NCBI RefSeq assembly: GCF_002269345.1
Contig: NZ_CP022889.1
Span: 2,584,501-2,648,500 of the forward strand
Source of the DNA: Tsuneonella mangrovi
GTDB lineage: Bacteria > Pseudomonadota > Alphaproteobacteria > Sphingomonadales > Sphingomonadaceae
Length of the DNA: 64,000 bases
Direction of reading: 5' to 3'
In this document: in pieces, positions 15,401 through 29,100 of the stretch
Layout: the number at the start of each line of letters is the position of its first letter
Position numbering within the stretch: the first letter of the stretch is position 1
Position numbers and translations under genes: made by a program
The notes under the pieces: model-generated
The model's database searches: none
Told to the model about the DNA's origin: nothing
The model's input: the letters and a program-made list of their open reading frames with translations, nothing else

Positions 15401-15628
15401 TCAGGCGACCCGTTCGATCACGAACCGATAGAGGCCATCGCCTTCTTCGGTTTCGACCATCTTGTTGCCTGTGGTGCGGCAAAAAGCTTCGAAATCCTTC
15501 ACCGAGCCGGGATCGGTCGCGAGGATTTCCAGCGTCTGGCCGCTATCAAGTTCCTTGAGCGCCTTTTTCGCCTTCAGGATCGGCAACGGGCAATTGAGCC
15601 CCTTCGCGTCGAGTGTTTCATCGGCCAT
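15401..15628 (-). CDS. tusA: TusA-family sulfurtransferase
   Basis: Sulfur carrier of 75 aa. Its TusA motif CPLP, with Cys13, carries persulfide sulfur between partners in the cytoplasm. In sulfur oxidizers TusA works with DsrE-type proteins and feeds Dsr or sHdr. The ATG at 15628 is used, with GGAG about 10 nt upstream; a 6-residue longer form starts at 15646, next to the dsrE2 stop. A second cysteine, in EAFCRTTGNKM, is common in the family. It follows dsrE2 with 18 bp between, the familiar dsrE2–tusA pairing, and is followed by the fadL-like gene. Confidence 0.92.
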   Translation of the reverse strand: MADETLDAKGLNCPLPILKAKKALKELDSGQTLEILATDPGSVKDFEAFCRTTGNKMVETEEGDGLYRFVIERVA

Positions 15629-15646
15629 TTCTGCGTTTCTCCCCAA

Positions 15647-16147
15647 TTACATATACAGATTGATGTCGGACTTGAGCGCGGACTCCATCCAGGTTGCCGC
15701 GCCACCGATTTCGATGCCGTCGATCATGTCCTCTTTCTTCTTTTCGAACAGGTCGAGGGTCATCTGGCAGGCGATCATCCGCACATCGGACAGGACCGCC
15801 GCTTCGCGCAGTTCTTCGATCGAGGCGACGCCTTTCTTCTTGATCATGTTCTTCATCATCGCGGTGGCTCCGCCGGTCACGCCCGGGAGCATCCCGACGA
15901 GGTTGGGCATGCCCATGTGCATTCCCATCATCGGCATTTCCATCGCCGGGTTGCCGAGCGGGGAAACCTTGAGGTCGAGGTCCTTTTCCAGCAGGCCAAG
16001 CCCGTAGAACGTGAAGAACATCGTCACTTCGACGTCCATCGCCGCTGCGGTGGTGCCGAGGATGAAGGGGGGATAGGCCCAGTCTAGCGTGCCCTTGGTG
16101 CAGATAATCGTCATCCGCTTGGCGTTGTTCAGGTCGGCCTCGGCCAT
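15647..16147 (-). CDS. dsrE2: DsrE2-type sulfurtransferase
   Basis: DsrE2 group protein of 166 aa, longer than DsrE/DsrE3, with the Met/Gly-rich central insertion (MEMPMMGMHMGMPNLVGM, 69–86) typical of DsrE2. It has Cys16 in TIICTKG and the active-site Cys127 in MIACQMTLDLF. DsrE2 is thought to move sulfane sulfur to TusA, possibly at the membrane. It is the first gene of the leftward set dsrE2–tusA–fadL-like and shares a 160-bp divergent promoter region with the deacetylase gene, where a putative operator sits. Confidence 0.88.
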   Translation of the reverse strand: MAEADLNNAKRMTIICTKGTLDWAYPPFILGTTAAAMDVEVTMFFTFYGLGLLEKDLDLKVSPLGNPAMEMPMMGMHMGMPNLVGMLPGVTGGATAMMKNMIKKKGVASIEELREAAVLSDVRMIACQMTLDLFEKKKEDMIDGIEIGGAATWMESALKSDINLYM

Positions 16148-16196
16148 AATTCCATCTCCCGCTGGTCAGCTGCGTACCCGTATTCTTATCACTGTC

Positions 16197-16212
16197 ATTA
16201 GCGATTGCTATA
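16197..16212. promoter_or_regulatory. Putative operator B (ATTAG-N6-CTATA) in the dsrE2/HDAC divergent promoter
   Basis: ATTAG (16197–16201), six bases, then CTATA (16208–16212) matches the ATTAG-N6-CTAAT plan of the sites at 17460 and 21659 with two mismatches in the right arm. A second TATATTAG half-site overlaps it at 16209–16216. A weak promoter toward the plus strand (TTGCTA 16205, TATACC 16229) overlaps the site. Confidence 0.5.
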
Positions 16213-16311
16213 TTAGAATGAGCGAAACTATACCAAGCCGATTGGCTTGTCCATCGGGCCGCAAAAAGGCACCACGGCCTGTGTGGAAACCGGGAATGCG
16301 GGAGGGGATCC

Positions 16312-17469
16312 ATCGCTGACTTCGCTTCGACCGGTCGGCCGGCGATCTATGTCGGGGGGGAGATCTATACCCGCCCGTCGTTCGGAACGAATCATCCGCT
16401 GTCCTACACCCGACAAGGTGCTGTCGAGGCGCTCTGCCGCGCGCTCGGATGGTTGCCGCCCCAGGTTTGCCGCACCGCGCCGCAAGCCACGCCCGAAACG
16501 CTCAGGCGGCTGCATGCGGCACCCTATGTCGGTGCGTTGAAGGCGGCGAGCGAGCGAGGCAGCGTCACCCGTCACGAGCGCGAAACCTACCGTTTCGGGA
16601 CGATGGAAAATCCGATCTTCGCCGGGTTGTTCGAGCGCGCCGCGTCGACCGTCGGCGGTTCGATGCTTGCGGCGCAATTGGCGCTCGAAGGCAAGGTGGC
16701 GTTCCACCCCGCAGGCGGCACCCACCACGGCCGACCCGACCGGGCGAGCGGGTTCTGCTATTTCAACGATCCGGCATTTGCGATCCTCGCGTTCCTCGAC
16801 GCGGGGCTCGAGCGGGTGCTCTATGTCGATGTCGATGCACACCACGGCGACGGGGTGTTCGATGCCTTTGTCGGTGATGCGCGGGTCGCCTGCGTCTCGA
16901 TCCACGAGGAAGATCGCTGGCCTAATACGGGCACGCTGGGCGAACAGGGCGAACGAGCGCTCAATGTGCCGGTGCCGGAGCGCGTCACCGACAGCGAATA
17001 CGCCGCCGCAATGCGCCAACTCGTGATGCCGTTCGCCGAGCGATTCGACCCGAAAGCGATCGTCATCACCTGCGGGGCGGACGCGCTCCACGGCGATCCG
17101 CTGTCGCATATGGAGCTGAGCAACCGGGCGCTGTGGAGCGCTGTGCTCGATCTCTGCGCGCTCGACCTGCCGACCGTCGTGCTGGGCGGGGGCGGCTACA
17201 ACCCGTGGACCACGGTGCGCTGCTGGGCGGGCCTGTGGGGAGTGCTGTCCGGTCGCGAATTTCCCGAAACATTGCCCGACGAGGCGCTTACGCTGCTGGC
17301 AGGTTTCGAGTCGGACCTGGTCGATGAGGACGAGCTCGAACCGTACTGGCTCGACCGGCTGGCCGACCCGCCGCATGTCTCATCGGTCAGGCCCGAGGTT
17401 GCGGAACGCCTTGCTGCGTTGGCAAGTGTGCATTTCGCGGTCGAAGATGCAGCCGGGCCTATACATTAG
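16312..17469 (+). CDS. Histone deacetylase (AcuC/HDAC) family hydrolase, apparent non-canonical start
   Basis: Zinc-dependent deacylase of about 385 aa. Family catalytic features are intact: THH (His138/139), VDVDAHHGDGV with zinc ligands Asp175 and His177, CGADAL with Asp257, and GGGGYN with Tyr296. The conserved N-terminus (AIYVGGEIYTRPSFGTNHPL) is coded from about 16342, yet no ATG, GTG or TTG lies in frame between the stop at 16219 and TTG 16453, which is too far inside. ATC at 16312 stands 6 nt after a perfect GGAGG and would give xADFASTGRPAIY, so it is the best start candidate (or a mutated ATG). The last codons and stop form the left arm of the palindrome before the lipS genes. Its substrate is unknown; lipoyl or acyl-lysine is possible here. 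Confidence 0.75.
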   Translation: MADFASTGRPAIYVGGEIYTRPSFGTNHPLSYTRQGAVEALCRALGWLPPQVCRTAPQATPETLRRLHAAPYVGALKAASERGSVTRHERETYRFGTMENPIFAGLFERAASTVGGSMLAAQLALEGKVAFHPAGGTHHGRPDRASGFCYFNDPAFAILAFLDAGLERVLYVDVDAHHGDGVFDAFVGDARVACVSIHEEDRWPNTGTLGEQGERALNVPVPERVTDSEYAAAMRQLVMPFAERFDPKAIVITCGADALHGDPLSHMELSNRALWSAVLDLCALDLPTVVLGGGGYNPWTTVRCWAGLWGVLSGREFPETLPDEALTLLAGFESDLVDEDELEPYWLDRLADPPHVSSVRPEVAERLAALASVHFAVEDAAGPIH

Positions 17470-17485
17470 GGAAAGCTAATGTATA
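17460..17485. promoter_or_regulatory. Putative operator C, perfect palindrome before the lipoate-assembly genes
   Basis: TATACATTAG (17460–17469) and CTAATGTATA (17476–17485) are exact reverse complements with the 6-nt spacer GGAAAG. The left arm includes the stop codon of the deacetylase gene. The AT-rich arms look like a -10 region, so a bound regulator would block transcription of the lipS genes. This is the best-formed of the ATTAG-N6-CTAAT sites. Confidence 0.7.
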
Positions 17486-17522
17486 ACCGACCGAACGCCT
17501 GAAGAGCGAAAGGGAGAGATCG

Positions 17523-18563
17523 TTGCGCTGGATGGAACGACTGCAAGCGATCGAACCGCTGGAAGATGCGGTGTTCGATGCCGGGTTGGTCGCGGCGATG
17601 GAACATCGCGCGGGCGCAACGCTCGACCGGTCGATCCGCTTTTCCACCCCGACCTTCAAGGAATACCAGAGCGACGAGTTGCAGGGGTGCGGCAAGAATT
17701 CATTCCCCGCGTTTTCGATCACGGCAGGCGGTTGCGCGCTCAATTGCGACCATTGCCAGAAGAAGATCCTCGAGCCGATGATCCCGGCGACCAGCCCGGA
17801 CATGCTCGAACAGAAGGTTCGCGACCTGATCATGCTGCAGAACCTGCAGGGGTTCCTGCTGTCGGGCGGGTCGAACAAGCGCAACGAGATCCGCTACGAG
17901 CGGTTCCTGCCGGTGGTCGAGCGGCTCAAGAACGAGTTCCCGCACCTCAAGGTCGCGATCCATACCGCGCTGCTCGACGAGACGCTGGCCAAGAGCATGG
18001 AAAGCGCCGGGGTCGATACCGCGATGATGGACGTGATCGGCGCGCAGGAGACGATCAACGAGGTCTACAAGCTCGATCGCCCGGTGGAGGATTTCGAGGC
18101 CACGCTGGCGGCGCTGACATCGACCAGCATGGAAGTGACTCCGCATATTGTCGTCGGGCTGCACTATGGCGAGATTCGCGGAGAAGCGAACGCGCTCGAC
18201 ATCATCTCGCGCTATGACGTGACCGCGCTGGTGCTGGTAGTGATCATGCCGTTTTACGCCAAACCGGGCACCTTCAAGACACCTTCGACCAGCGATGTCG
18301 GCAGGATTTTCCTCGAATCGCGCACCCGGTTGGCGGACAAGAAAGTCCTGCTCGGCTGCGCCCGCCCGCCGGGGATGCACAAGCGCGTGACCGATGCCTA
18401 CGCCGTGATGGCAGGGCTCGACGGGATCGCTTTCCCGGCCGACGGTGCCGTTGCGGTCGCCAGCGCGATCGGGCGCCCGTTCGAGCAGGAGCACGCCTGC
18501 TGTTCGATCAAGCTTGGCCAGACCGGGGCCGATACCACCAGCCGCGTCGCCTGTGCGGCGTGA
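17523..18563 (+). CDS. Radical SAM protein of the LipS1/LipS2 lipoate synthase type (first)
   Basis: Radical SAM enzyme of 346 aa with the cluster motif C71-x3-C75-x2-C78 (CALNCDHCQ) and a nearby Cys56 in LQGCGKN. Two such enzymes, LipS1 and LipS2, together insert the two sulfur atoms into octanoylated protein in a pathway separate from LipA, often encoded beside sHdr genes. Which of the two this is cannot be settled by eye. TTG at 17523 is preferred (GGGAGAG 6 nt upstream); ATG 17532 is an alternative. It follows operator C and leads the set lipS–lipS–ligase–amidotransferase-like. Confidence 0.8.
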   Translation: MRWMERLQAIEPLEDAVFDAGLVAAMEHRAGATLDRSIRFSTPTFKEYQSDELQGCGKNSFPAFSITAGGCALNCDHCQKKILEPMIPATSPDMLEQKVRDLIMLQNLQGFLLSGGSNKRNEIRYERFLPVVERLKNEFPHLKVAIHTALLDETLAKSMESAGVDTAMMDVIGAQETINEVYKLDRPVEDFEATLAALTSTSMEVTPHIVVGLHYGEIRGEANALDIISRYDVTALVLVVIMPFYAKPGTFKTPSTSDVGRIFLESRTRLADKKVLLGCARPPGMHKRVTDAYAVMAGLDGIAFPADGAVAVASAIGRPFEQEHACCSIKLGQTGADTTSRVACAA

Positions 18564-18593
18564 CACGACGATGACTTTGGGAGACATCCGCCA

Positions 18594-19886
18594 ATGAGCT
18601 GCCTCAAGAACGAAACCGCCCAGCCTTCCTCTTCGGGCGCCAATGGTGCGGATTTCAACGCGGCGGTGGCGATGCAGCCGCGCGTGCCGGACTTTATCTC
18701 GCCCGAGCTGCGCAACGGCGGGCGGGTAAAGACGGCCAATGCCGCTCCGCAGGGTGTCTACCTGCCCAACAACAATATCCAGACCCCCAACATGACCTCG
18801 CCCGAATACGTGCAGATCAGCACGGCCGCGGCGATGACGCTGGGTTTGATGCCGGGATCGATGCACGGCTGTTCGTGCACCCGCTGCCTGAACCTGTTGC
18901 TGACCTATCCGGAAGGCTGCCGCGCCAACTGCGCCTACTGCGGGCTGGCGCGCCACCGCGAGGCCGACCGCGACTATGCCGACCGCAACTTCATTCGCGT
19001 CGATTGGCCGGCGGTACCGATGGCGCAGATCGCCGAGATTGTCGGGCGTGACGGGGCGAAGAGTCCGTTCCACCGGATGTGCATCTCGATGATTACGCAC
19101 CCGAAGTCGGACGAGGACACGTTTACCGTGCTCAAGACCTGGACCGACCACGTCTCGCCCGACGATATTCCGGTCTCGATCCTCTCCAACCCCACCACGA
19201 TGCAGCGCGCGGACGTGCAGAAGCTCAGGGACATGGGCTCGGACATCTTCACCGTCGCGCTCGATGCGGCGACCCCGGAAATCTTCGACCGGACCCGCGG
19301 CAAGGGTGTGCAGAGCCCGCACAACTGGAACAAGTACTGGGAAATCCTCAATGCCGCGCGCGACATCTTCGGGCCGAAGAAGTTCGGGGCGCATATCATC
19401 GTCGGGATGGGTGAAACCGAGTTCGAGTCGCTGACTCTCGTTCAGCAGCTGGTCGACATGGGCGGGCACAGCCACATGTTCTGCTTCTATCCCGAGAAGG
19501 GCAGCCTGATGGACCACCTGCCGGCAACCCCGCGCGACCAGTGGCGGCGGGTCCAGCTGGCGCGTTACATGATCGACTATTGCGGCGTGCGGGTCGACCA
19601 GATGAAGTTCGACGGCGAAGGCCGGGTGGTCGATTTCGGCCTGCCCTCGGGCGAAGTCGACGCGATCATCGATGCCGGTATCGCATTCCGCACCAGCGGC
19701 TGTCCCGGCAAGTTCCAGGAAGATATTTCGGCGTGCGACCGGCCTTATGGCGACAGCCCGGTGTCCGACATCGCCAGTTATCCGTTCCAGCCCGAGGGTG
19801 CGCACCTGAAGAAGATTCGCACCCAGCTCGGCCGGGTTCGTCCGGGTGAGGAATATACCCCGGGCGAGGAATTCGAGAGCCTCTGA
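18594..19886 (+). CDS. Radical SAM protein of the LipS1/LipS2 lipoate synthase type (second)
   Basis: Second lipoate-synthase-type radical SAM enzyme, 430 aa. The SAM-cluster motif is C109-x3-C113-x2-C116 (CRANCAYCG). An upstream cysteine group C93/C95/C98 (CSCTRC) may hold the auxiliary cluster that donates sulfur, as in other sulfur-inserting radical SAM enzymes. The C-terminal SGCPGKFQEDISACDRPYG adds two more cysteines. The first 60 residues are poorly conserved-looking. It lies 30 bp after the first lipS gene, and its stop overlaps the start of the ligase gene (TGATG). Confidence 0.8.
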   Translation: MSCLKNETAQPSSSGANGADFNAAVAMQPRVPDFISPELRNGGRVKTANAAPQGVYLPNNNIQTPNMTSPEYVQISTAAAMTLGLMPGSMHGCSCTRCLNLLLTYPEGCRANCAYCGLARHREADRDYADRNFIRVDWPAVPMAQIAEIVGRDGAKSPFHRMCISMITHPKSDEDTFTVLKTWTDHVSPDDIPVSILSNPTTMQRADVQKLRDMGSDIFTVALDAATPEIFDRTRGKGVQSPHNWNKYWEILNAARDIFGPKKFGAHIIVGMGETEFESLTLVQQLVDMGGHSHMFCFYPEKGSLMDHLPATPRDQWRRVQLARYMIDYCGVRVDQMKFDGEGRVVDFGLPSGEVDAIIDAGIAFRTSGCPGKFQEDISACDRPYGDSPVSDIASYPFQPEGAHLKKIRTQLGRVRPGEEYTPGEEFESL

Positions 19887-20947
19887 TGGCGGCGCGTTTC
19901 CGGGTCGTCGATACCGGGGTTCGTACGGGCCGGGAGAACATTGCGCTCGACAGTGCAATGATCGAAGCGCGGCTGGCAGGCGAGATCGAAGATACGATCC
20001 GCTTTATCCAGTTCGAGCCGTGCGCGCTGGTCGGGCGGCACCAGGACCTTGCGCAGGAGCTCAACCTCGATGCCTGTGCCGCACGCGGAGTGCAGACCGT
20101 GCGGCGAATGACCGGCGGCGGGGCGATTTTCATGGATGGCGGCCAGCTGGGCTGGGCGCTGGTGTGCGACAAGCGCGCGTTCGGGCAGGTTACGCTCGCC
20201 GATGTTACCGAGAAAATCTGCACCGGGATCGCTGCGGGGCTTTCCAAGTTGGGCGTCGATGCCCGGTTCCGCCCGCGCAACGATATCGAGATCGAGGGGC
20301 GCAAGGTCTCGGGTACCGGCGGATTCTTCGACGGCAATATCCTGATTTTCCAGGGCACCGTGATCCTGGACCTCGATCCGGCGGCGATGATGGCGGTTCT
20401 CAATGTTCCGCAAGCCAAGTTGGCGAAGCGCCAGCTGGCCGATGCCGGTGCGCGGGTGACCTCGCTCAAGGCGGAGCTCGGCACGATGCCGTCGCTCGAC
20501 CGGGTGAAGCAGGTGCTGATCGAAGGTCTCACCGAAACACTCGGCATCGATACGGTCGACGGTACCCTGACCGCGCACGAACAGGAACTGGCCGACAAAG
20601 CCTATACCGAGGAAATCGGCACGGAGGAATTTGTCACCGAGATATGCGATCCTGCGCGCGAAGCGGGCGTGCTGACCGGCCAGAACGCTGGCCGCAATCT
20701 GACCGCCTACGTCAGGGTTGACGGCAAGCAGGATGCGCGCATCCGCGAAGTGCTGTTCGTGGGCGACGTGTTTGTGACCCCGCCGCGCGCAGTGCTCGAT
20801 CTTGAATCGCACCTGCGCGGCAGCCAGCTGGCCGATATCGAGCGCAAGACCGCCGAATTCTTCGAAAGCGCCGGGGCGTCGATGCTTGGCGTTTCCGCAG
20901 CGGATTTCTCTGCCGCTGTGCTCGACGCCGCCTGCCTTCCGGCGTGA
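19886..20947 (+). CDS. Two-domain lipoate–protein ligase sLpl(AB)
   Basis: Ligase of 353 aa that activates lipoate or octanoate with ATP and attaches it to a lysine, here presumably of LbpA. The N-terminal LplA domain shows RRMTGGGAIF (substrate loop), RPRNDIEI and the catalytic-lysine motif GRKVSGTGGFF. The C-terminal part (about 255–353, starting EFVTEICDPAREAG) is the accessory LplB-like domain, fused rather than separate, as in the sLpl(AB) group of sulfur oxidizers. The ATG overlaps the preceding stop by 1 nt, and the end overlaps the next start by 4 nt, so the four genes are tightly coupled. Confidence 0.88.
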   Translation: MAARFRVVDTGVRTGRENIALDSAMIEARLAGEIEDTIRFIQFEPCALVGRHQDLAQELNLDACAARGVQTVRRMTGGGAIFMDGGQLGWALVCDKRAFGQVTLADVTEKICTGIAAGLSKLGVDARFRPRNDIEIEGRKVSGTGGFFDGNILIFQGTVILDLDPAAMMAVLNVPQAKLAKRQLADAGARVTSLKAELGTMPSLDRVKQVLIEGLTETLGIDTVDGTLTAHEQELADKAYTEEIGTEEFVTEICDPAREAGVLTGQNAGRNLTAYVRVDGKQDARIREVLFVGDVFVTPPRAVLDLESHLRGSQLADIERKTAEFFESAGASMLGVSAADFSAAVLDAACLPA

Positions 20948-21645
20948 AGCAACTCACTGTCATCCAGCACACCTCGGCCGACTACCTCGGGCTGATCGAG
21001 GATCATCTCGAAGGGAGGCGGATTCGCTTCCACTACCACCGCCCGTTCACCGAGGCGGGCAAGATACCTCCGTTCGATCATGTCGGCGACGGGCTGATCC
21101 TGCTCGGCGGCGGCCCGTGGGGCAGTGCAGGCGGGCGCGACGTGCCAACGCTGGCGGAAGAAGTGGCGCTCGCGCGGGCGTGCTTCATGAGCGGGATCCC
21201 CACGATCGGTATCGGTCTCGGTGCCCAGATCGTTGCTTTGGCGTGCGACGGATCGGTCGAGGCGGCGCCGCTCGCATTCACCGTCGAGCCAGCGAATCGG
21301 GTGCGTGAAGACGCACTCGCCGGGTTCATGCCCGAAAGCTGGATCAATCCCGTCTATATGCGCGATCGCCCCGTCCCGCCTGATTTCGCGACCATCCTGG
21401 CTCAGGACAGCGCCGGTCGTCCGGCGGCATTCCAGATCGGCGAAACGGTGTTCGGGTTCACCGGGCACCCCGGCTTCAAGCGCGCGATGGCCGAAGACCT
21501 GATCATGGAGTTCGAGGAAGTACCTGAAAACTCAGGACCTTCGCTCGACCGGTTGGGATTGGAAAAGAATTCCATCGGCGACGCGCTGGTGCCGATCATG
21601 ACCGGGATCGTGAAACTGACAGGATGGATGCGCGAAGAGGGCTGA
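20944..21645 (+). CDS. Class I glutamine-amidotransferase-like protein lacking the catalytic residues
   Basis: Protein of 233 aa with the class I glutamine amidotransferase fold: LILLGGGPWG (51–60) and a nucleophile-elbow sequence IPTIGIGLGAQIVAL. The elbow should read G-x-C-x-G but carries Gly91 in place of the nucleophile Cys. The C-terminal catalytic His-x-Glu is GHPGF, so His is kept and Glu is not. It cannot act as a normal glutaminase and may be a binding or scaffold subunit. GTG at 20944 overlaps the ligase stop. Its coupling to lipS, lipS and sLpl suggests a part in lipoate assembly. The next gene begins after an operator-bearing gap. Confidence 0.8.
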   Translation: MKQLTVIQHTSADYLGLIEDHLEGRRIRFHYHRPFTEAGKIPPFDHVGDGLILLGGGPWGSAGGRDVPTLAEEVALARACFMSGIPTIGIGLGAQIVALACDGSVEAAPLAFTVEPANRVREDALAGFMPESWINPVYMRDRPVPPDFATILAQDSAGRPAAFQIGETVFGFTGHPGFKRAMAEDLIMEFEEVPENSGPSLDRLGLEKNSIGDALVPIMTGIVKLTGWMREEG

Positions 21646-21658
21646 CCTCTCTTGCTTA

Positions 21659-21674
21659 ATTAGAATATCCTAAT
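21659..21674. promoter_or_regulatory. Putative operator D upstream of dsrE3–shdr
   Basis: ATTAG (21659–21663), spacer AATATC, CTAAT (21670–21674): the same arms and spacing as operator C. It lies in the only sizeable gap (79 bp) between the lipoate genes and dsrE3, 51 bp before the dsrE3 ATG, and a TTGCTT hexamer (21652) overlaps its left edge. It probably controls the sHdr operon. Confidence 0.65.
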
Positions 21675-21724
21675 ATGATGCCCGTCAGGAACCCGAAAAC
21701 GGGCCACCAACAGGAGAGAGCCGA

Positions 21725-22105
21725 ATGGCCGACAAGCTGCTAATCATCATGGCCAATACCGACCCGTCAAACGGGGAGGAACTCGGTGCGCCGATCTTCC
21801 AGGCGACTGTCGCCGCGGCGATGGAATACGAAGTCGAGGTCATCTGCACGGCGACTTCGGGCAAGTTGATGAAGAAGGGCGTGGCTGAAAGCCTCGTGGT
21901 CAAGCCAGGATCGGACAAGACCGTCTATGACTTTATCAAGGACGCGCACGATGCCGGGGTCAAGTTCCTCTGCTGCTCGCCGAACCTCGACCTGTTCGAC
22001 ATGGGCAAGGACGACCTGATCCCCGAGTGCAGCGAAATCGTCGGCGGTGCCTACCTGATCGAGCAGGTGATGGAAGAAGACGACGTCAAGGTGCTGAGCT
22101 ACTGA
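21725..22105 (+). CDS. dsrE3: DsrE3-type sulfurtransferase
   Basis: Cytoplasmic DsrE-fold protein of 126 aa and first gene of the sHdr operon. Adjacent Cys83-Cys84 in KFLCCSPNLDLF occupy the DsrE active-site position, and Cys41 lies in VICTATSG. DsrE3 proteins, often called DsrE3C when beside shdr, exchange sulfane sulfur with TusA on its way to sHdr. The ribosome-binding site CAGGAGAGAG is strong. The stop is 10 bp from the shdrC1 ATG. Paralogs in the window are dsrE2 at 15647 and the single gene at 2953. Confidence 0.88.
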   Translation: MADKLLIIMANTDPSNGEELGAPIFQATVAAAMEYEVEVICTATSGKLMKKGVAESLVVKPGSDKTVYDFIKDAHDAGVKFLCCSPNLDLFDMGKDDLIPECSEIVGGAYLIEQVMEEDDVKVLSY

Positions 22106-22115
22106 GGGCGGGGCG

Positions 22116-22877
22116 ATGGGCGCGGTTCACACTTCCACCCGGGTCGAAAAGTACATCGGCGATCCCGTCGAGGGGATCGAGGAAATCGACCGCGACACGC
22201 TGCAGGAGATTTTCGACGATATCCAGGCGGACCTGCGCTTCGATCACGAGCTCAACGGTTGCCTGAACTGCGGCATCTGCACTGCCACCTGCCCTGCTGC
22301 GCATTACTACGACTTCAGCCCGCGCGAGATCGTCCAGCTGCTGTGGACCGAGAATCTCGAAGGCATCTACGATGCGATGCAGGAGAAGATCTGGTCCTGC
22401 GCGCAATGCTATACCTGTGCGGCGCGGTGCCCGTTCGGCAATTCGCCGGGCGGTCTTGTGATGCTGATGCGCGAAACTGCGATCAAGCACGGGATGGAAA
22501 GCGCCAAGAGCGTGCTGCGCCCGTTCAGCCGGGTGATGCTCAAGCTGATTTCGACCGGCAACCAGCTGTCGCCGGACATGATCAACCCCGATCACTTCGG
22601 CGACTGGGGCCCCAACATTTCCAAGATCGACGCGCCGCTCCAGGTGCTGCGCAAAGCGATCCCGATGCCCACGCTCAACACCATCAAGACGGCGTGGGAA
22701 ACCAACCTCAAGACCTCGGTCGAACTCTATACCATCTGGGAAGAATCGGGCGTGCTCGACCAGCTGGAGACGATCGACGAGAACCTGTTCGACGTGATCG
22801 AAGACATCATGGACGAGAAACGGGACGAATGGGACGACTTCCTCGAAGACCAGGAAGATGAGGACGACGAGGATTAA
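22116..22877 (+). CDS. shdrC1: sHdrC1, HdrC-like iron-sulfur subunit
   Basis: Electron-transfer subunit of 253 aa with two 4Fe-4S ferredoxin motifs, C49/C52/C55/C59 (CLNCGICTATCP) and C95/C98/C101/C105 (CAQCYTCAARCP). In the sHdr complex of sulfur oxidizers it links sHdrA with the sHdrB subunits. The C-terminal tail is very acidic (EDQEDEDDED), which may aid contact with partners. The gene order C1-B1-A-hyp-C2-B2 identifies it as C1 of the sHdr type rather than methanogen HdrC. Confidence 0.92.
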   Translation: MGAVHTSTRVEKYIGDPVEGIEEIDRDTLQEIFDDIQADLRFDHELNGCLNCGICTATCPAAHYYDFSPREIVQLLWTENLEGIYDAMQEKIWSCAQCYTCAARCPFGNSPGGLVMLMRETAIKHGMESAKSVLRPFSRVMLKLISTGNQLSPDMINPDHFGDWGPNISKIDAPLQVLRKAIPMPTLNTIKTAWETNLKTSVELYTIWEESGVLDQLETIDENLFDVIEDIMDEKRDEWDDFLEDQEDEDDED

Positions 22878-22888
22878 GGAGACAGGTG

Positions 22889-24277
22889 ATGTCCACCCCC
22901 ACGGGAAATGACGGAGAGCGCTTCACCGGCCACGGGTCGGAATGGCGCGATTCGAACCTCTCCGCCGCCGATGCGGCGCAGGCGACAAGCTGGGTCGAAG
23001 CGAAGATCGACAAGCGCTCGATGCTGACCAACAAGGATCGCGTCCACGATATCCGCGACGTGATGTGGCAGCTGGAGAAAGAGGGCGAGATCAAGGTCCA
23101 CCGGATCGAGGACCAGCACGCGCCGCGCATCGCCAAGACGCTGTATGGATGGGACAAGAAGATCCCTACCCGCCAGCTGTGGCATCACAAATCGTGCGGC
23201 CAGTGCGGTAACATCCCGGGCTATCCCACGGCGCTGCTGTGGATGATGAACGAGATGGACATCCCCTATCTCGACGAGACCGACCAGACCAGCTGCACCG
23301 CGTGGAACTATCACGGTTCGGGCATCGGCAACGTCGTCAGCCTCGCGGCGGTGTTCCTGCGCAATTTCCACCAGGCCTATGTCTCGGCCAAGGCGGAAGG
23401 GCTGCCCGAAGGATACTACTATCCGCTGGTCCACTGCGGCACGTCGTTCGGCAACTACAAGGAAATCCGCGAGTACCTGCTGCTGAGCGCGACCTTGCGC
23501 GAGAAGGTGACCGAGATCCTCGGCAAGCTCGACCGGCTGGTTGACGGCAAGTTGCTGATTCCCGAAGAGATCGTCCACTATTCGGAGTGGGTCCACGCGA
23601 TGCGCAAGGACATCGCGGCACGGCAGGTGTTCGACGTGTCGAACGTGCGCGCAACGATCCACCCGGCGTGCCACGTCTACAAGATGATCCCGCAGGACGT
23701 GATCTACGATGACGAAGTGCTCGACGGCAATCGTGTCGCCGTTTCCACTGGCATCGTGCAGGACCTTGGTGCGCAGGTGATCGACTATTCGACGTGGTAC
23801 GATTGCTGCGGCTTCGGCTTCCGCCACATCATTTCGGAGCGCGAGTTCACCCGCAGCTTCGCGATCGACCGCAAGATCAAGGTGGCGGTCGACGAGGCGC
23901 ATTCCGACGTAATGATCGGCCACGACACCGGCTGCATCACCACGCTCGACAAGAACCAGTGGATCGCCAAGGCCGACGAACGCAATGCCGGTAGGGACTA
24001 TTCGCTGCCGGTTATCGCAGACATCCAGTTCGCGGCGCTCGCCTGCGGCGCGCACCCCTACAAGATCGTCCAATCGCATTGGCACGCATCGCCGATGGAG
24101 CGGCTGTTCGAGAAGATGGGGATCGACTGGCAGGCCCGGAAGGCCGAGTTCGAGGACTACCTCAAGCTCGTCGAGAAGGGCCAGCAGGACAACCTTTACG
24201 ATCCGCGCCGCCGCATCACCGGTGGCCCGGGCTACATTCCGCCAGAAAAACGCACAGCAATTGAGGCGCAGCCGTGA
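22889..24277 (+). CDS. shdrB1: sHdrB1, CCG-domain subunit with extended N-terminus
   Basis: HdrB-like subunit of 462 aa, much longer than the methanogen protein (about 300 aa). It has a 60-residue N-terminal lead and the cysteine motif KSCGQCGNIPGYPT. The C-terminal CCG region holds HPACHVYK, the double cysteine WYDCCGFGFRH and GHDTGCITT, which would bind an active-site cluster like the noncubane clusters of HdrB. In the hypothesised reaction, sHdrB subunits act on the sulfur substrate or LbpA-bound lipoamide. ATG 22889 follows AAGGAGACAG; GTG 22886 is also possible. The end overlaps shdrA by 4 nt. Confidence 0.92.
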   Translation: MSTPTGNDGERFTGHGSEWRDSNLSAADAAQATSWVEAKIDKRSMLTNKDRVHDIRDVMWQLEKEGEIKVHRIEDQHAPRIAKTLYGWDKKIPTRQLWHHKSCGQCGNIPGYPTALLWMMNEMDIPYLDETDQTSCTAWNYHGSGIGNVVSLAAVFLRNFHQAYVSAKAEGLPEGYYYPLVHCGTSFGNYKEIREYLLLSATLREKVTEILGKLDRLVDGKLLIPEEIVHYSEWVHAMRKDIAARQVFDVSNVRATIHPACHVYKMIPQDVIYDDEVLDGNRVAVSTGIVQDLGAQVIDYSTWYDCCGFGFRHIISEREFTRSFAIDRKIKVAVDEAHSDVMIGHDTGCITTLDKNQWIAKADERNAGRDYSLPVIADIQFAALACGAHPYKIVQSHWHASPMERLFEKMGIDWQARKAEFEDYLKLVEKGQQDNLYDPRRRITGGPGYIPPEKRTAIEAQP

Positions 24278-25320
24278 GCAAATCCATTCTCGTTGTCGGC
24301 GGCGGTCCCGCCGGCCTGGCCGCCGCGCATTCGCTGGCGATCGCCGGGCAACAAGTAACCCTGGTCGACAAGGCCGACCGGCTGGGCGGCGCGCCGATCC
24401 TCTCGGGCTATGCCAAGCTGGCCCCGAGCTTCGAGTGGGCAAAGGACGCGATCGGGCCGATGGTCGACCGCGTCGTGAATAGCCCCAACGTCAAGGTCGT
24501 GACCGAAGCGACCGTGACCGAATTTTCCGGCGAACCGGGCAATTTCACCGCCAAGCTTTCGACCGGCGACACGGTGGAAGCCGCGGCGGCGATCCTTGCC
24601 ACCGGTTTCACCCACTTCGACAGCGTCAATAAGCCCGAATGGGGTTTCGGCCTCTTCCCCGATGTCGTCACCACGACCCAGGTCGAGCAGATGATCTCGA
24701 GCGGCAAGGGCATCCGCCGTCCCTCGAACGGCGAGCCGCCAAAGCGCGTCGCTATCCTGCTGTGCGTGGGTAGCCGCGATCGCCAGATCGGGCGCGAATG
24801 GTGCTCCAAGATTTGCTGCACCGTTTCGGCCAAGATGGGCATGGAAATCCGCGAGGAACTGCCGGATTGCCACGTCTACATCTACTACATGGATATCCGC
24901 ACCTTCGGGCTCTACGAAGAAATCTACTGGCGCAGCCAGGAAGAACACAAGGTCAAGTACATCAAGGCGCGTATCGCCGAAGTGACCAGCGACGGTGACA
25001 AGGTGATCGTCAAGGGCGAGGACACCCTCGTCAAGCGCCCGATCACGATCCCGTTCGATATGGTGGTGCACGCGATCGGGATGGACCCGAACGTCGACAA
25101 CATGCTGCTGTCGAGCGTGTTCGGGGTCGACCTCCACCATTGGGGCTTCATCAAGCGCGAGAACACCTACGGCGTGATGGGCGCGACCAACCGCGAAGGC
25201 GTGTTCGTTGCCGGCGCTGCGACGGGCCCGGAAACGATCGACGATTCGATCGCGCAGGGCACCGCAGCGGCAATGTCGGTGCTTGGCTCGCTCGCTCCGC
25301 CGGCCGTAGCGGCCGAATAG
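24274..25320 (+). CDS. shdrA: sHdrA, FAD subunit
   Basis: Flavoprotein of 348 aa, the compact sHdrA form without the extra ferredoxin domains of methanogen HdrA. It has the FAD motif VVGGGPAGLAAA (7–18) and the HdrA cluster signature LLCVGSRDRQIGREWCSKICC (C164, C177, C181, C182). The C-terminal AAATGPETIDDSIAQGTAAA matches the FAD-capping motif of the family. It starts with GTG overlapping the shdrB1 stop. It is the core of the complex, where electrons from sulfur oxidation would reach FAD and then NAD+ or another acceptor (inference). Confidence 0.93.
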   Translation: MSKSILVVGGGPAGLAAAHSLAIAGQQVTLVDKADRLGGAPILSGYAKLAPSFEWAKDAIGPMVDRVVNSPNVKVVTEATVTEFSGEPGNFTAKLSTGDTVEAAAAILATGFTHFDSVNKPEWGFGLFPDVVTTTQVEQMISSGKGIRRPSNGEPPKRVAILLCVGSRDRQIGREWCSKICCTVSAKMGMEIREELPDCHVYIYYMDIRTFGLYEEIYWRSQEEHKVKYIKARIAEVTSDGDKVIVKGEDTLVKRPITIPFDMVVHAIGMDPNVDNMLLSSVFGVDLHHWGFIKRENTYGVMGATNREGVFVAGAATGPETIDDSIAQGTAAAMSVLGSLAPPAVAAE

Positions 25321-25324
25321 GATC

Positions 25325-26191
25325 GTGGCGGCGCGCGCACATCTGTCGGGCTACCATCCGGGGGAAGAAGACCTCGCGATCCGGCTCGACCTCGATGGCG
25401 AGGCGCTGTCGGGTGCGCTTTCGGGGCTGCTTGCCGCGTCGGAGCGGCACGGCGGGATCGAGAAGATCGTCGAGGCGATCAACCTCAAGGTCTCGCTGTT
25501 CGGCGACGCGCTTGAAAATGGCGGCAAGGACCTGACCCCCGAGCGGTTTATCAAGCTGCTGATGTTCCTGCCGACCGTTCGTCGCCGCGCGGCCAACTAC
25601 ACCGAAGGTTCGGACTTCCTCGCGCTGAAGGCGGCGGTTTGCGAGCTGCTCGAAGAAGGCGATGCCGATGCACGCATTGCACGCTTCCAGACCCATTTCC
25701 CGAGCGGCAAACGCTATCGCTGGGTCCGCGACCTGGCGTGCGAAATCCTCCACAACACCAACCGCGAACTCTACCCGCTGATGACCCGCTGGCTGTGGGA
25801 CCACAAGGCGAACTCGGGCGTGCTGCGTGAGATCTGGTTTGCCGAAGACGTCGACAACATGATGATCGACGTGCCCGACACTTACGCAACCTTCCTCAAG
25901 CTGCGCGAGGAGCTGTCGGGCTACCTGACCGACAACGGCGTGTTCCGCGACGTGCCGTGCTACGTCGACCTGCTCTGCGCGCAGGTCTACGCCGGCTACA
26001 TCGCTTCGCAGGGCGGTGCTTTCCTCAAGGCCGACTTCGCTTCCGAGCAGGACAGTTTCCTGTTCGTGCTGCGGCTGCTCGGGCTCGACGGCGGCAAGCC
26101 CAAGACCGCCTCCGATGACGAAGATCGCGACAGCGACGATATCGACCTGTCCGACATCATGACCACCTCGCGCCTGCTCGGGAACGCATAA
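25325..26191 (+). CDS. sHdr-cluster conserved protein (hyp) between shdrA and shdrC2
   Basis: Protein of 288 aa with no domain recognised by eye, at the place of the hyp gene conserved in shdrC1B1A-hyp-C2B2 loci. It looks fully helical and cytoplasmic, with no signal or membrane segment. Residues with possible roles are the cysteines in KAAVCELLEE, RDLACEIL and VPCYVDLLC. The tail (PKTASDDEDRDSDDIDLSD) is strongly acidic. GTG at 25325 is 4 nt after the shdrA stop, and the stop is 1 nt from shdrC2, so it is coupled to both. It may be a structural subunit of the complex; no catalytic motif is seen. Confidence 0.8.
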   Translation: MAARAHLSGYHPGEEDLAIRLDLDGEALSGALSGLLAASERHGGIEKIVEAINLKVSLFGDALENGGKDLTPERFIKLLMFLPTVRRRAANYTEGSDFLALKAAVCELLEEGDADARIARFQTHFPSGKRYRWVRDLACEILHNTNRELYPLMTRWLWDHKANSGVLREIWFAEDVDNMMIDVPDTYATFLKLREELSGYLTDNGVFRDVPCYVDLLCAQVYAGYIASQGGAFLKADFASEQDSFLFVLRLLGLDGGKPKTASDDEDRDSDDIDLSDIMTTSRLLGNA

Positions 26192-26192
26192 C

Positions 26193-26933
26193 ATGCCCAT
26201 TCACGAAAAGAGCCTGATCCGCCCGGAAAACCTCGAGACGCACGAAAACCTCGTGATCGACGGGATCGACGTTTCAGGTGACTGGTCGACCTTCATCCGC
26301 AGCCGCGTGGTGACCGACTACAACGAAGACCTGCAGGACGAAATCGCGGCGCTGCCCGGCGGGGAGTACATCCACCGTTGCTGGCAATGCGGATCGTGCA
26401 CCAACAGCTGCACGGTCAACGCCGAAAACCCCGACTTCAACCCGCGTTACTGGATCTACCTGATCCGCATGGGGATGGAGAGCGAGTTGGTCCGCGACAA
26501 GGACATCATCTGGCAGTGCGTCAGCTGCAACAAGTGCACCAGCGCCTGTCCGCGCGACGTCGTGCCCGAAGGGGTGATGAAGGCGACCGCGCACTGGCTG
26601 GAAATGAAGGGTTATACCGAGAAGACGAACTCTACCGTGTTCGACGAGATCTTCACCGGCCAGGTGGTCGAGCGCGGCAAGATCGAAGACGGCGAAGTGC
26701 TGATGGAGTTCCTCAAGGAAACCAAGCAGCCGCTGATGCAGGATTGGCTGGTTCAGCTGGTCAAGCAGATGGTTGCCGGCTTCCCGGTGTTTGCGCTCCT
26801 CAAGATGGGGATGGCCACGGTGTTCAAGCCCAAGACCAGCGACTGGTCGAAAGCGCGCGACGCTATCAAGAGCCATATCGAAGAAGAAAAGGCCGATGCG
26901 CGCAAGGCGCTGGGCCTCGAACCGGCAGAGTAA
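26193..26933 (+). CDS. shdrC2: sHdrC2, HdrC-like iron-sulfur subunit
   Basis: Second HdrC-like subunit, 246 aa, with two 4Fe-4S motifs, C63/C66/C69/C73 (CWQCGSCTNSC) and C109/C112/C115/C119 (CVSCNKCTSACP). Unlike sHdrC1 its C-terminal half has a hydrophobic stretch (WLVQLVKQMVAGFPVFALLK, about 185–204), common in HdrC proteins, followed by a charged tail. It pairs with sHdrB2, 9 bp downstream. Two distinct C/B pairs in one complex are a hallmark of sHdr. Confidence 0.92.
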   Translation: MPIHEKSLIRPENLETHENLVIDGIDVSGDWSTFIRSRVVTDYNEDLQDEIAALPGGEYIHRCWQCGSCTNSCTVNAENPDFNPRYWIYLIRMGMESELVRDKDIIWQCVSCNKCTSACPRDVVPEGVMKATAHWLEMKGYTEKTNSTVFDEIFTGQVVERGKIEDGEVLMEFLKETKQPLMQDWLVQLVKQMVAGFPVFALLKMGMATVFKPKTSDWSKARDAIKSHIEEEKADARKALGLEPAE

Positions 26934-26942
26934 GGACGGGCG

Positions 26943-27881
26943 ATGCACGATACCCGCAAGGAACGGTACAAGAAGGTCGCCTACTACCCCGGCTGCGCGC
27001 TGGAGGGGTCGGGCCAGCCGTACGATATTTCCACCCGCGCGGTGGGCAAGAAGCTCGGCCTCGAACTGGTCGACGTGAAGGACTGGAACTGTTGCGGTGC
27101 GATGGAGGTCAAGAACATCGATCCCGAAGTGCAGACCTATCTCTCTTCGCGGGTGATGAGCCAGGCCAAGCACAAGAACAAGGCCGACGTGGTGATGGCA
27201 CCGTGCAACGGCTGCTACCACAACCTCAAGAAGGCCGAACACGACATCGCGCAGAAGCCGAAGTCGAAGGAAGTGGTGGAGAAAATCTCCGCCAAGGCCG
27301 GGCACGAAGCCTACCAGCCGGGCGAGATCGAGACGATCCACGCGCTTGACTGGATCAAGTGGGGCTTTGGCGAGGAAGAGCTCAAGGCCAAGATCAAGGG
27401 CGGGCTCAAGGGCCTGAAGATCGCCAACTACTACGGCTGCATGTACACCCGGCCGCGCCACATCTTTCCGGAGAAGGGCAAGGGCGGCGACAGCGAGAGC
27501 CTGACGAAGCCGCACTACATGGACGACCTGCTGGCGGTTGCCGGGGCGGAGAACGTCGATTTCCCGCTCAAGACCGCGTGCTGCGGCGGGGCGCACACGC
27601 TGTCGGATTCGGACATGTCGACCAAGCTGGTGCTCAATATCCTCGAGGCGGCGGAAGCGGCGGGTGCGGAAGTGATTGCAACCGAATGCCCGACTTGCCA
27701 CTCGGGGCTGGAGATGCACCAGATCCGTGCGCTCAAGCGGCTGTCGAAGGATACCAACGTCAAGGTGATCTACTTCACCCAGCTGCTCGGCCTCGCGATG
27801 GGGCTTTCACCGCGAAAGGTCGGGCTCAACGCCAACGTTTCGCAGTCGATCCCGCTGTTGAAAGCGAAGGGGATCGTCTGA
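26943..27881 (+). CDS. shdrB2: sHdrB2, CCG-domain subunit
   Basis: HdrB-like subunit of 312 aa with two CCG domains. The first holds YYPGCALEG (C18), DWNCCGAME (C50/C51) and APCNGCYHN (C88/C91). The second holds YYGCMYTRP, KTACCGGAHT and TECPTCHSG. These are the ligands of the two noncubane 4Fe-4S clusters that cleave disulfides in methanogen HdrB, so the full set is preserved here. That makes sHdrB2 the best candidate for the site that handles lipoamide-bound sulfur. The start is 9 bp after shdrC2. Confidence 0.92.
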   Translation: MHDTRKERYKKVAYYPGCALEGSGQPYDISTRAVGKKLGLELVDVKDWNCCGAMEVKNIDPEVQTYLSSRVMSQAKHKNKADVVMAPCNGCYHNLKKAEHDIAQKPKSKEVVEKISAKAGHEAYQPGEIETIHALDWIKWGFGEEELKAKIKGGLKGLKIANYYGCMYTRPRHIFPEKGKGGDSESLTKPHYMDDLLAVAGAENVDFPLKTACCGGAHTLSDSDMSTKLVLNILEAAEAAGAEVIATECPTCHSGLEMHQIRALKRLSKDTNVKVIYFTQLLGLAMGLSPRKVGLNANVSQSIPLLKAKGIV

Positions 27882-27883
27882 CG

Positions 27884-28333
27884 ATGCGCAGCATCACCGA
27901 AATCGAGCAGTGGCTCAATTCGGGTGAACGCGTGCCGACAGCGCTCGGTCATGCCGAGCAGCTGCTCGTCGCGGGCGAGGAAGTGCTGGAGAACTGGATC
28001 TTGGCGCACGGCGGGAAGCCGACCCGCGACACGCGCGAAGGGTTCCGCCTGCTCGCGCTGCATCGACAGGGCGCAAAGGGCGATCCCAGTTTCAATGCCT
28101 GCCGCGAAACCTGCCGCGAACTGGCGTATCATTACAATCTCATTCGCTACGCCGAAAATGCGGACAACGATGCCACCACGATCGCGATGATGCGCCTCGT
28201 GACAAAGCATCTCGTGCTGTTTATCGGCGGAAAGCTGCAGGAAGCGGGGTTGGGGGATTTTTGCTGTTCGTCCCGCCCGCGCCGAATGACACCTGACGAC
28301 ACCGTCGAACCCTTGGGAGCCGATCATGCCTAA
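27884..28333 (+). CDS. Small cysteine-containing protein between shdrB2 and lbpA, unknown
   Basis: Protein of 149 aa, helical and soluble, not recognised. It carries C73-x3-C77 (FNACRETCREL) and a vicinal pair Cys127-Cys128 (DFCCSSRPRR). The disordered-looking tail is coded in the stretch that overlaps the next ATG. The start is 2 nt after the shdrB2 stop, and the stop is 8 nt inside lbpA, so translation is linked to both. The position suggests work on LbpA or between LbpA and sHdrB2. The cysteines could carry sulfur or bind a metal; neither can be shown from sequence. Confidence 0.75.
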   Translation: MRSITEIEQWLNSGERVPTALGHAEQLLVAGEEVLENWILAHGGKPTRDTREGFRLLALHRQGAKGDPSFNACRETCRELAYHYNLIRYAENADNDATTIAMMRLVTKHLVLFIGGKLQEAGLGDFCCSSRPRRMTPDDTVEPLGADHA

Positions 28334-28766
28334 CGTACGCGGATGCAACCTGCCCGACGACCTGCTCTACGATGTGGAAAACCACATCTGGATCAAGGAA
28401 GAAGGCGACGGCAACATCAAGCTCGGGATGACCGCGGTCGCGACCGCGCTGGCGGGCGAACTCGTCGCATTCACGCCCAAGAAAGTCGGTAAGGAAATCA
28501 AACCGGGCAAGTCCTGCGCGATCGTCGAAAGCGGCAAGTGGGTCGGCCCTGCGAAGACAATGGCAGGTGGTGAGATCGTGGCGGTAAACGAGGCATTGGT
28601 CGCCCAGCCGAACCTTGCCAACGCCGATCCTTACGCAAACTGGATGGTGATCCTTGCGCCGGACGACTGGGATGGCGTAAAGGGCCAGCTCACTCCCGGC
28701 AGCGAGGTTGCCGGGCCATACGAGGCAAAGATGGCCGCCGACGGTTTCGAAGGCTGCGGTGGCTGA
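28326..28766 (+). CDS. lbpA: LbpA, lipoate-binding protein of the sHdr pathway
   Basis: GcvH-like protein of 146 aa whose lipoylated lysine, Lys71 in VESGKWVGP, replaces the ESVK motif of glycine-cleavage H protein. LbpA is essential for sHdr-based thiosulfate oxidation in Hyphomicrobium and is lipoylated by the sLpl/LipS pathway encoded 5 kb upstream. The fold signatures LGMTAVATALAGELVAF and ANADPYANWMVILAP are clear. Cys7, Cys64 and Cys144 are present. The start overlaps the previous ORF by 8 nt and the end overlaps the arsR-type gene by 8 nt. Confidence 0.93.
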   Translation: MPNVRGCNLPDDLLYDVENHIWIKEEGDGNIKLGMTAVATALAGELVAFTPKKVGKEIKPGKSCAIVESGKWVGPAKTMAGGEIVAVNEALVAQPNLANADPYANWMVILAPDDWDGVKGQLTPGSEVAGPYEAKMAADGFEGCGG

Positions 28767-29100
28767 CGGACGGGACAAGTCGAAAGTGGAACTACCGCTC
28801 GAGCGGATGCAGGAGAATGCCACGCAGGCTACCGGCCTGCTCAAGTCGATGGCCAACGAGTCGCGGCTGATGATCCTGTGCCTGCTGTCACAGCAGGAAA
28901 TGTCGGTCGGTGAGCTAGCGCAGCGGATCGAGCTCTCGCAGTCGGCGCTGTCGCAGCATCTCAGCATCCTGCGACGTGAGAAGCTGGTGAAGACCCGGCG
29001 CGAATCGCAGTTCGTGTGGTACTCGCTCGCCAGTGAAGAGGCCGAGCGCGTGGTCCACACGCTCTACGACATTTACTGCGCGGACTGCGAAATCGACTGA
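28759..29100 (+). CDS. shdrR: ArsR-family sulfane-sulfur regulator, sHdrR/SqrR-like
   Basis: Winged-helix repressor of 113 aa, last gene of the operon. GTG at 28759 overlaps the lbpA end and gives MADGRDKSKVELP. Cys41 (LMILCLLSQ) and Cys107 (YDIYCADC) sit at the numbers of the cysteine pair that forms a tetrasulfide bridge in SqrR; Cys110 is extra. The DNA helix reads ELSQSALSQHLSILRREKLV. Regulators of this group (SqrR, BigR, sHdrR) release DNA when sulfane sulfur appears. It is the natural candidate to bind the ATTAG-N6-CTAAT sites. Confidence 0.85.
   Translation: MADGRDKSKVELPLERMQENATQATGLLKSMANESRLMILCLLSQQEMSVGELAQRIELSQSALSQHLSILRREKLVKTRRESQFVWYSLASEEAERVVHTLYDIYCADCEID

Follow-up and report, generated by a model that had tools for sequence, protein, structure and literature searches.

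The 64,000-nucleotide stretch of the Tsuneonella mangrovi genome that was analysed here (the window) carries the gene order lipS1-lipS2-slpl-lipX-dsrE3C-shdrC1B1AHC2B2-lbpA. The lipX gene shows the arrangement that marks members of its family: it lies directly 3' of slpl(AB), its start overlaps the slpl stop, and dsrE3C comes next. The best NCBIfam models for lipS1, lipS2, and sLpl are LipS1, LipS2, and lipoate ligase, all under their curated cut-offs and in agreement with the Pfam domains, and no lipT is present between lipS1 and lipS2. The features are the following.

17466..17479, no strand: operator-like palindrome TTAG-N6-CTAA, 5' of lipS1 (pattern count in the window)
17523..18563, + strand: lipS1 (NF053742 at 194 bits, under the cut-off of 230; 63-89% identity to the copies of related loci)
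18594..19886, + strand: lipS2 (NF053743 at 180 bits, under the cut-off of 270)
19886..20947, + strand: slpl(AB), lipoate:protein ligase (NCBIfam lipoate ligase model, under its cut-off, and Pfam domains)
20944..21645, + strand: lipX, 233 aa, GTG start, predicted pseudoenzyme with a class I glutamine amidotransferase (GATase) fold (ORF list, alignment, AlphaFold model, structural match, tree)
20944..20947, + strand: GTGA, the 4 nt shared by the sLpl stop TGA and the lipX start GTG (sequence)
21214..21216, + strand: codon 91 of lipX, Gly at the nucleophile Cys position (sequence, alignments)
21466..21474, + strand: codons 175-177 of lipX, His-Pro-Gly, with Gly at the catalytic Glu position (sequence, alignments)
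21660..21673, no strand: operator-like palindrome TTAG-N6-CTAA in the lipX/dsrE3C gap (pattern count in the window)
21725..22105, + strand: dsrE3C, DsrE-family sulfur carrier, the most constant downstream neighbour of lipX (Pfam, survey of 91 loci)
22116..27881, + strand: shdrC1-B1-A-H-C2-B2 gene set (ORF list, NCBIfam, related loci)
28326..28766, + strand: lbpA, GcvH-like lipoate-binding protein, acceptor of the lip pathway (PF01597 at 99 bits)

Directly 5' of lipS1, a histone-deacetylase-family gene (16453-17469, + strand; PF00850, 224 bits) is kept in most LipX loci. It is absent from the lip set in the parts of the published descriptions covered here, and its product is a candidate deacylase for the acyl- or lipoyl-lysine of LbpA.

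The AlphaFold model of LipX, built from 53 relatives, has a pLDDT of 93.8 and a pTM of 0.92. Its best VIA match is DnfC (8khs; Z 26.7, rmsd 2.4 over 222 residues), which indicates a class I GATase fold, and further structural matches (Foldseek/VIA) include 3l7n (Z 25.8), 3m3p (25.3), TM1158 (24.1), and GGP1 (20-21). Among sequence models, Pfam PF00117 reaches 21.5 bits, under its gathering score of 22.8, the best NCBIfam model, PRK07053 (NF005458), scores 58.7 bits where 250 are required, and a PHROGs search gave no significant match. LipX thus has the fold of class I GATases and lacks both the nucleophile Cys of the GxCxGxQ elbow and the His-x-Glu pair: its elbow reads I-G-I-G91-L-G-A-Q and its C-terminal motif G-H175-P-G177. 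The aligned columns read ICLGAQ and H-x-E in those GATases from related genomes that bear the Cys. Gly91 in place of Cys and HPG in place of His-x-Glu, from which the original prediction started, are therefore both present in the ORF. Since Cys and Glu are missing, the LipX sequence makes standard glutamine hydrolysis impossible by the known mechanism.

A genome-wide scan returned 221 LipX relatives from Alpha-, Beta-, and Gammaproteobacteria, of which the best 80 were kept; as the scan was seeded with Cys-less sequences, distant Cys-bearing relatives could escape this selection. Together with the window LipX and 12 sequences from a class sample, these make up an alignment of 93 rows, which includes at least three pairs apparently from the same contig. 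All 93 rows have Gly at position 91. At position 177, 92 rows have Gly and one has Ala, the catalytic Glu being absent throughout, and at position 175 the residue is His in 85 rows and Asn in 8. In a profile search of selected genomes, the next group after the Gly-type LipX has Glu at position 91. These basal members, in loci L124, L125, and L126, show VELGAV or LELGAV (G748, G775) and IELGGQ with HPQ (G449), and beyond them the search gives ordinary Cys GATases at E values of about 1e-12. An extra search for gammaproteobacterial relatives covered a single genome in that family. Among 32 aligned PRK07053-type and related GATases, Cys is found in all 32 and Glu in 31.

In the tree, every LipX-family row falls on a single branch (support 100/99), apart from 31 Cys-bearing GATases, and the Gly-type LipX form one group (94/89) with the Glu-type members outside it. 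The simplest reading of these sequences is that LipX arose from a class I glutamine amidotransferase and that its Cys, lost once, and its Glu disappeared at the base of the family. Seven LipX pairs with usable dS give dN/dS values of 0.05-0.14, which are approximate because several pairs are close to saturation at synonymous sites; the range is similar to that of slpl and lipS2 and argues that the protein is maintained. Decay of LipX is ruled out by these values together with the invariant replacement residue, and the loss of catalytic residues is, as judged from the alignments, a family trait under purifying selection. The proposal that LipX is a pseudoenzyme is well supported by Gly91 in all rows and by the Cys-free family clade. 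As to whether the Cys is always lost in homologues, it is replaced by Gly throughout the alignment and by Glu in the three basal members, and an intact Cys-His-Glu triad was found in none of the homologues examined, including those in the same setting.

What is conserved instead lies largely around the former catalytic site. At least 95% conservation is seen at 63 LipX positions, which comprise 20 of the 31 positions in the loops at the edge of the former active site versus 43 of 202 elsewhere (p 3e-6, an indicative value because we chose these loops from the fold topology and not from measured distances). LipX-specific features are an extra Gly in the oxyanion loop, added relative to GATases, the invariant Trp59 of the same loop, Gly91, Arg140, Gly177, Lys179, and helix 180-194. 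Conservation within the family reaches 99-100% for His9, Arg140, and Asp141, and true GATases share His9 (84%) and Asp141 (59%). No Cys is invariant among the 93 rows, 11 of which have no Cys whatever, and the commonest Cys column, position 80, is filled in 53. This rules out LipX as a persulfide carrier acting through a conserved Cys, and a covalent sulfur-donor role for LipX is unlikely, given that no Cys is conserved.

The gene neighbourhood ties lipX to two partners. The immediate upstream same-strand neighbour is sLpl in 72 of 91 loci, with an exact 4-nt overlap in 40 of these 72, and in 75 of the 91 dsrE3C follows no more than 1.5 kb downstream. In eleven loci (L055, L061, L077, L080, L085, L090, L098-L100, L124, L125), dsrE3C is kept and the tie to the lip operon is broken, the lip genes having the opposite orientation or lying on different contigs. 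The distance between lipX and dsrE3C is greater in six loci, in five of which sLpl is still adjacent, and in L089 and L091 LipX stands alone, with sHdrB1 and LipS1 elsewhere in the genome. The claim that lipX is locked into the lipoate operon thus holds for most loci, including the window with its GTGA overlap, but not for several lineages in which LipX stays by dsrE3C.

The palindrome TTAG-N6-CTAA occurs twice in the whole window, where 0.05 copies are expected, once before lipS1 and once between lipX and dsrE3C, and loose patterns find similar inverted repeats in the lipX-dsrE3C gap of 50 out of 68 loci. The two copies are likely operators for the ArsR-type regulator encoded at 28708-29100. 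As they flank the genes from lipS1 to lipX, in the window lipX probably closes the lip unit and does not open a dsrE3C unit.

In a class sample of 385 genomes, a close LipX (E below 1e-60) is found in 10, which are identical to the 10 carrying sHdrB1. LipS1 is present in nine of them and in one further genome, G290, which has lipS1-lipS2-slpl and in which sHdrB1 and LipX were not found. Conversely, G339 has sHdrB1 and LipX, and LipS1/LipS2 were not found in it. Each exception is one draft genome, and an assembly gap is possible in G339, whose congener G806 has LipX and carries LipS1. Both exceptions suggest that LipX has the sHdr-LbpA system, and not LipS chemistry, for its constant companion, and they leave LipX as an obligate companion of LipS1/S2 unsupported. 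In G339, a lipoate-ligase-like gene (L100:14034-14966, 26% to sLpl) is divergent from LipX and is possibly an alternative ligase.

More distant relatives occur in other sulfur-related settings. G253 and G345 have a 39% relative with Gly at the Cys position beside a sox cluster (L102:9356-10102, L103:9116-9811), with dsrE2 about 5 kb away; in L102, the one locus whose sox genes were typed, it is head to head with soxXYAB and near a TsuA/SoxT-like transporter. Searches for LipS1/S2 and sHdrB1 in these two genomes gave no match. In G449, a 28% relative and a DsrE2-like gene form a head-to-head pair at a separate place from the shdr-lip cluster of that genome. LipX was not found in the plasmid records searched. 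A job specific to LipS-type lipoate synthesis, as initially suggested, is weakened by these results, as LipX follows sHdr, G290 has the LipS genes without it, and the sox-linked relatives occur without LipS or sHdr.

The shdr-lip island (window 15401-28766) has a patchy distribution. LipX is present in 0 of 10 same-genus genomes, in which the lone weak match is a Cys-bearing GATase, and the sHdr-bearing G672 has a congener without sHdrB1, suggesting that the island was gained horizontally or lost repeatedly.

A binding role is favoured by the cleft, which is both retained and elaborated, and by the tight gene linkage. We tentatively prefer, at somewhat less than even confidence, the reading that LipX has no catalytic role and serves as a binding adaptor when LbpA is matured or loaded with sulfur in the LbpA/DsrE3C/sHdr system. 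The former active-site cleft and the family-specific helix (180-194) would recognise a partner protein, or the thiol-bearing arm of that partner. The best candidate is LbpA, because it is the sole protein linking the lip operon, where it is matured, to dsrE3C-shdr, where it is used, and we infer that LipX binds it rather than catalysing a reaction. LipX might offer LbpA to sLpl or LipS1/S2, or else protect or load the lipoyl arm of LbpA. The data fit DsrE3C, or a small ligand with a thiol, almost equally well, and LbpA need not be the partner of every member, since the two sox-linked relatives lack LipS1/S2 and sHdrB1. In the published reconstitution, E. coli with lipS1-slpl-lipT-lipS2 of Thioalkalivibrio and without lipX modified LbpA, which carried a mercaptooctanoyl group, the second sulfur being inserted inefficiently (PMC10332631). 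That LbpA is modified without lipX speaks against the adaptor, though largely one sulfur was introduced (PMC10332631); a one-sulfur product leaves room for a missing helper, which is only a hint, since the gene set taken from the donor species had no lipX.

A possible but clearly less probable reading is that LipX docks DsrE3C (or DsrE2) and aids the handover of sulfane sulfur to LbpA/sHdr, the lip neighbourhood being secondary. The eleven loci in which LipX stays by dsrE3C, the DsrE2-like neighbour of the distant relative in G449, and the dsrE2 near the LipS-free sox-linked relatives are consistent with such a relay, but the translational coupling to sLpl is strong in most loci, an operator-like palindrome parts lipX from dsrE3C, five of the six loci with a farther dsrE3C keep sLpl adjacent, and LipX has no conserved Cys for carrying sulfur. 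We consider it unlikely that LipX uses the old gamma-glutamyl/glutamine cleft to bind a small molecule without cutting it, for example glutathione persulfide or octanoate, which would then be passed on or sensed. The cleft loops are the most conserved region, the oxyanion loop has acquired a Gly and the invariant Trp59, and the gamma-glutamyl peptidase GGP1 is among the structural relatives; nevertheless, identity to GGP1 is low, and conserved cleft loops would suit protein docking equally.

An enzyme with a changed mechanism, such as water activation by His9/Asp141/Arg140 in an amidase or acyl transferase of lipoate assembly, seems improbable. These three residues are nearly invariant, and the published descriptions, in the parts covered, imply an enzyme (PMC10332631, PMC11582611). 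Nevertheless, the nucleophile position is Gly or Glu, the Glu partner is gone, His175 is dispensable in 8 rows, and the occurrence of His9 and Asp141 in true GATases argues against a new catalytic set. That LipX is a decayed relic carried along by the operon, as the missing catalytic residues alone might suggest, is very hard to reconcile with the identical loss across three proteobacterial classes in one clade, the low dN/dS, the full-length open frames, and the retention of lipX after it left the operon.

A broader hypothesis, which we regard as rather unlikely in this full form, would place LipX, as the best-known branch, within a family of pseudo-amidotransferases whose members serve DsrE-type sulfur carriers, in Sox as well as in sHdr oxidation, and use a disarmed gamma-glutamyl cleft to bind either the lipoyl arm of LbpA or a ligand that is a thiol or a persulfide. 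If true, LipX would be a part of dissimilatory sulfur oxidation that has gone unrecognised and has no catalytic role. The name "putative glutamine amidotransferase" implies a function that the family probably does not have, as it appears unable to perform the standard reaction of its class. LipX is also amenable to genetic analysis, as part of a sulfur-oxidation pathway in which lipoate assembly, reconstituted in E. coli, largely stopped at one sulfur, and the published Hyphomicrobium denitrificans assay makes its role directly testable.

The lipX gene and its setting are already known. The portions of the literature covered here name Hden_0687 of H. denitrificans lipX, label it a "putative glutamine amidotransferase", let its start and the stop of slpl overlap (PMC10332631; PMC10451225) by ATGA (PMC10332631), draw hdr-like clusters with a GATase1 gene as early as 2018 (PMC6067878), and count lipX among the genes for enzymes assembling the lipoate cofactor (PMC11582611). 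The parts of the LipX descriptions consulted do not comment on the missing catalytic residues (PMC6067878, PMC10332631). The sections of the LipX literature searched contained no statement that LipX is a conserved pseudoenzyme, no mention of basal Glu-type members or of sox-linked relatives, and no experiments on lipX. The window and H. denitrificans share the order lipS1-(lipT)-lipS2-slpl-lipX-dsrE3C and the 4-nt slpl overlap, whereas lipT is present in H. denitrificans and missing between lipS1 and lipS2 in the window. A Hyphomicrobiaceae MAG (L043) shows the same gene order, with a FAD-oxidoreductase-like gene at the place of lipT, and its LipX has Gly91 and is 62% identical to that of the window.

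Among proteins of known structure or class, the PRK07053-type GATases (NF005458) and DnfC (8khs) share the LipX fold over the full length, but LipX differs from them: it has neither the Cys nor the His-x-Glu, its oxyanion loop carries Trp59 and one Gly more, and its helix at 180-194 is another one. GGP1 (9k7i-l), an active Cys peptidase that acts, by its entry titles, on gamma-glutamyl compounds, also shares the fold (Z 20-21), but with 14-15% identity in the structural alignment. Pseudo-GATases are already known, an example being the GATase domain of human CPS1 (5dou, 6uel), which matches the LipX fold at a Z of about 17 and in which the Cys is missing and the domain is retained for structural and allosteric reasons. 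That domain is fused to its synthetase, whereas LipX is a stand-alone protein with no synthetase partner in its operon.
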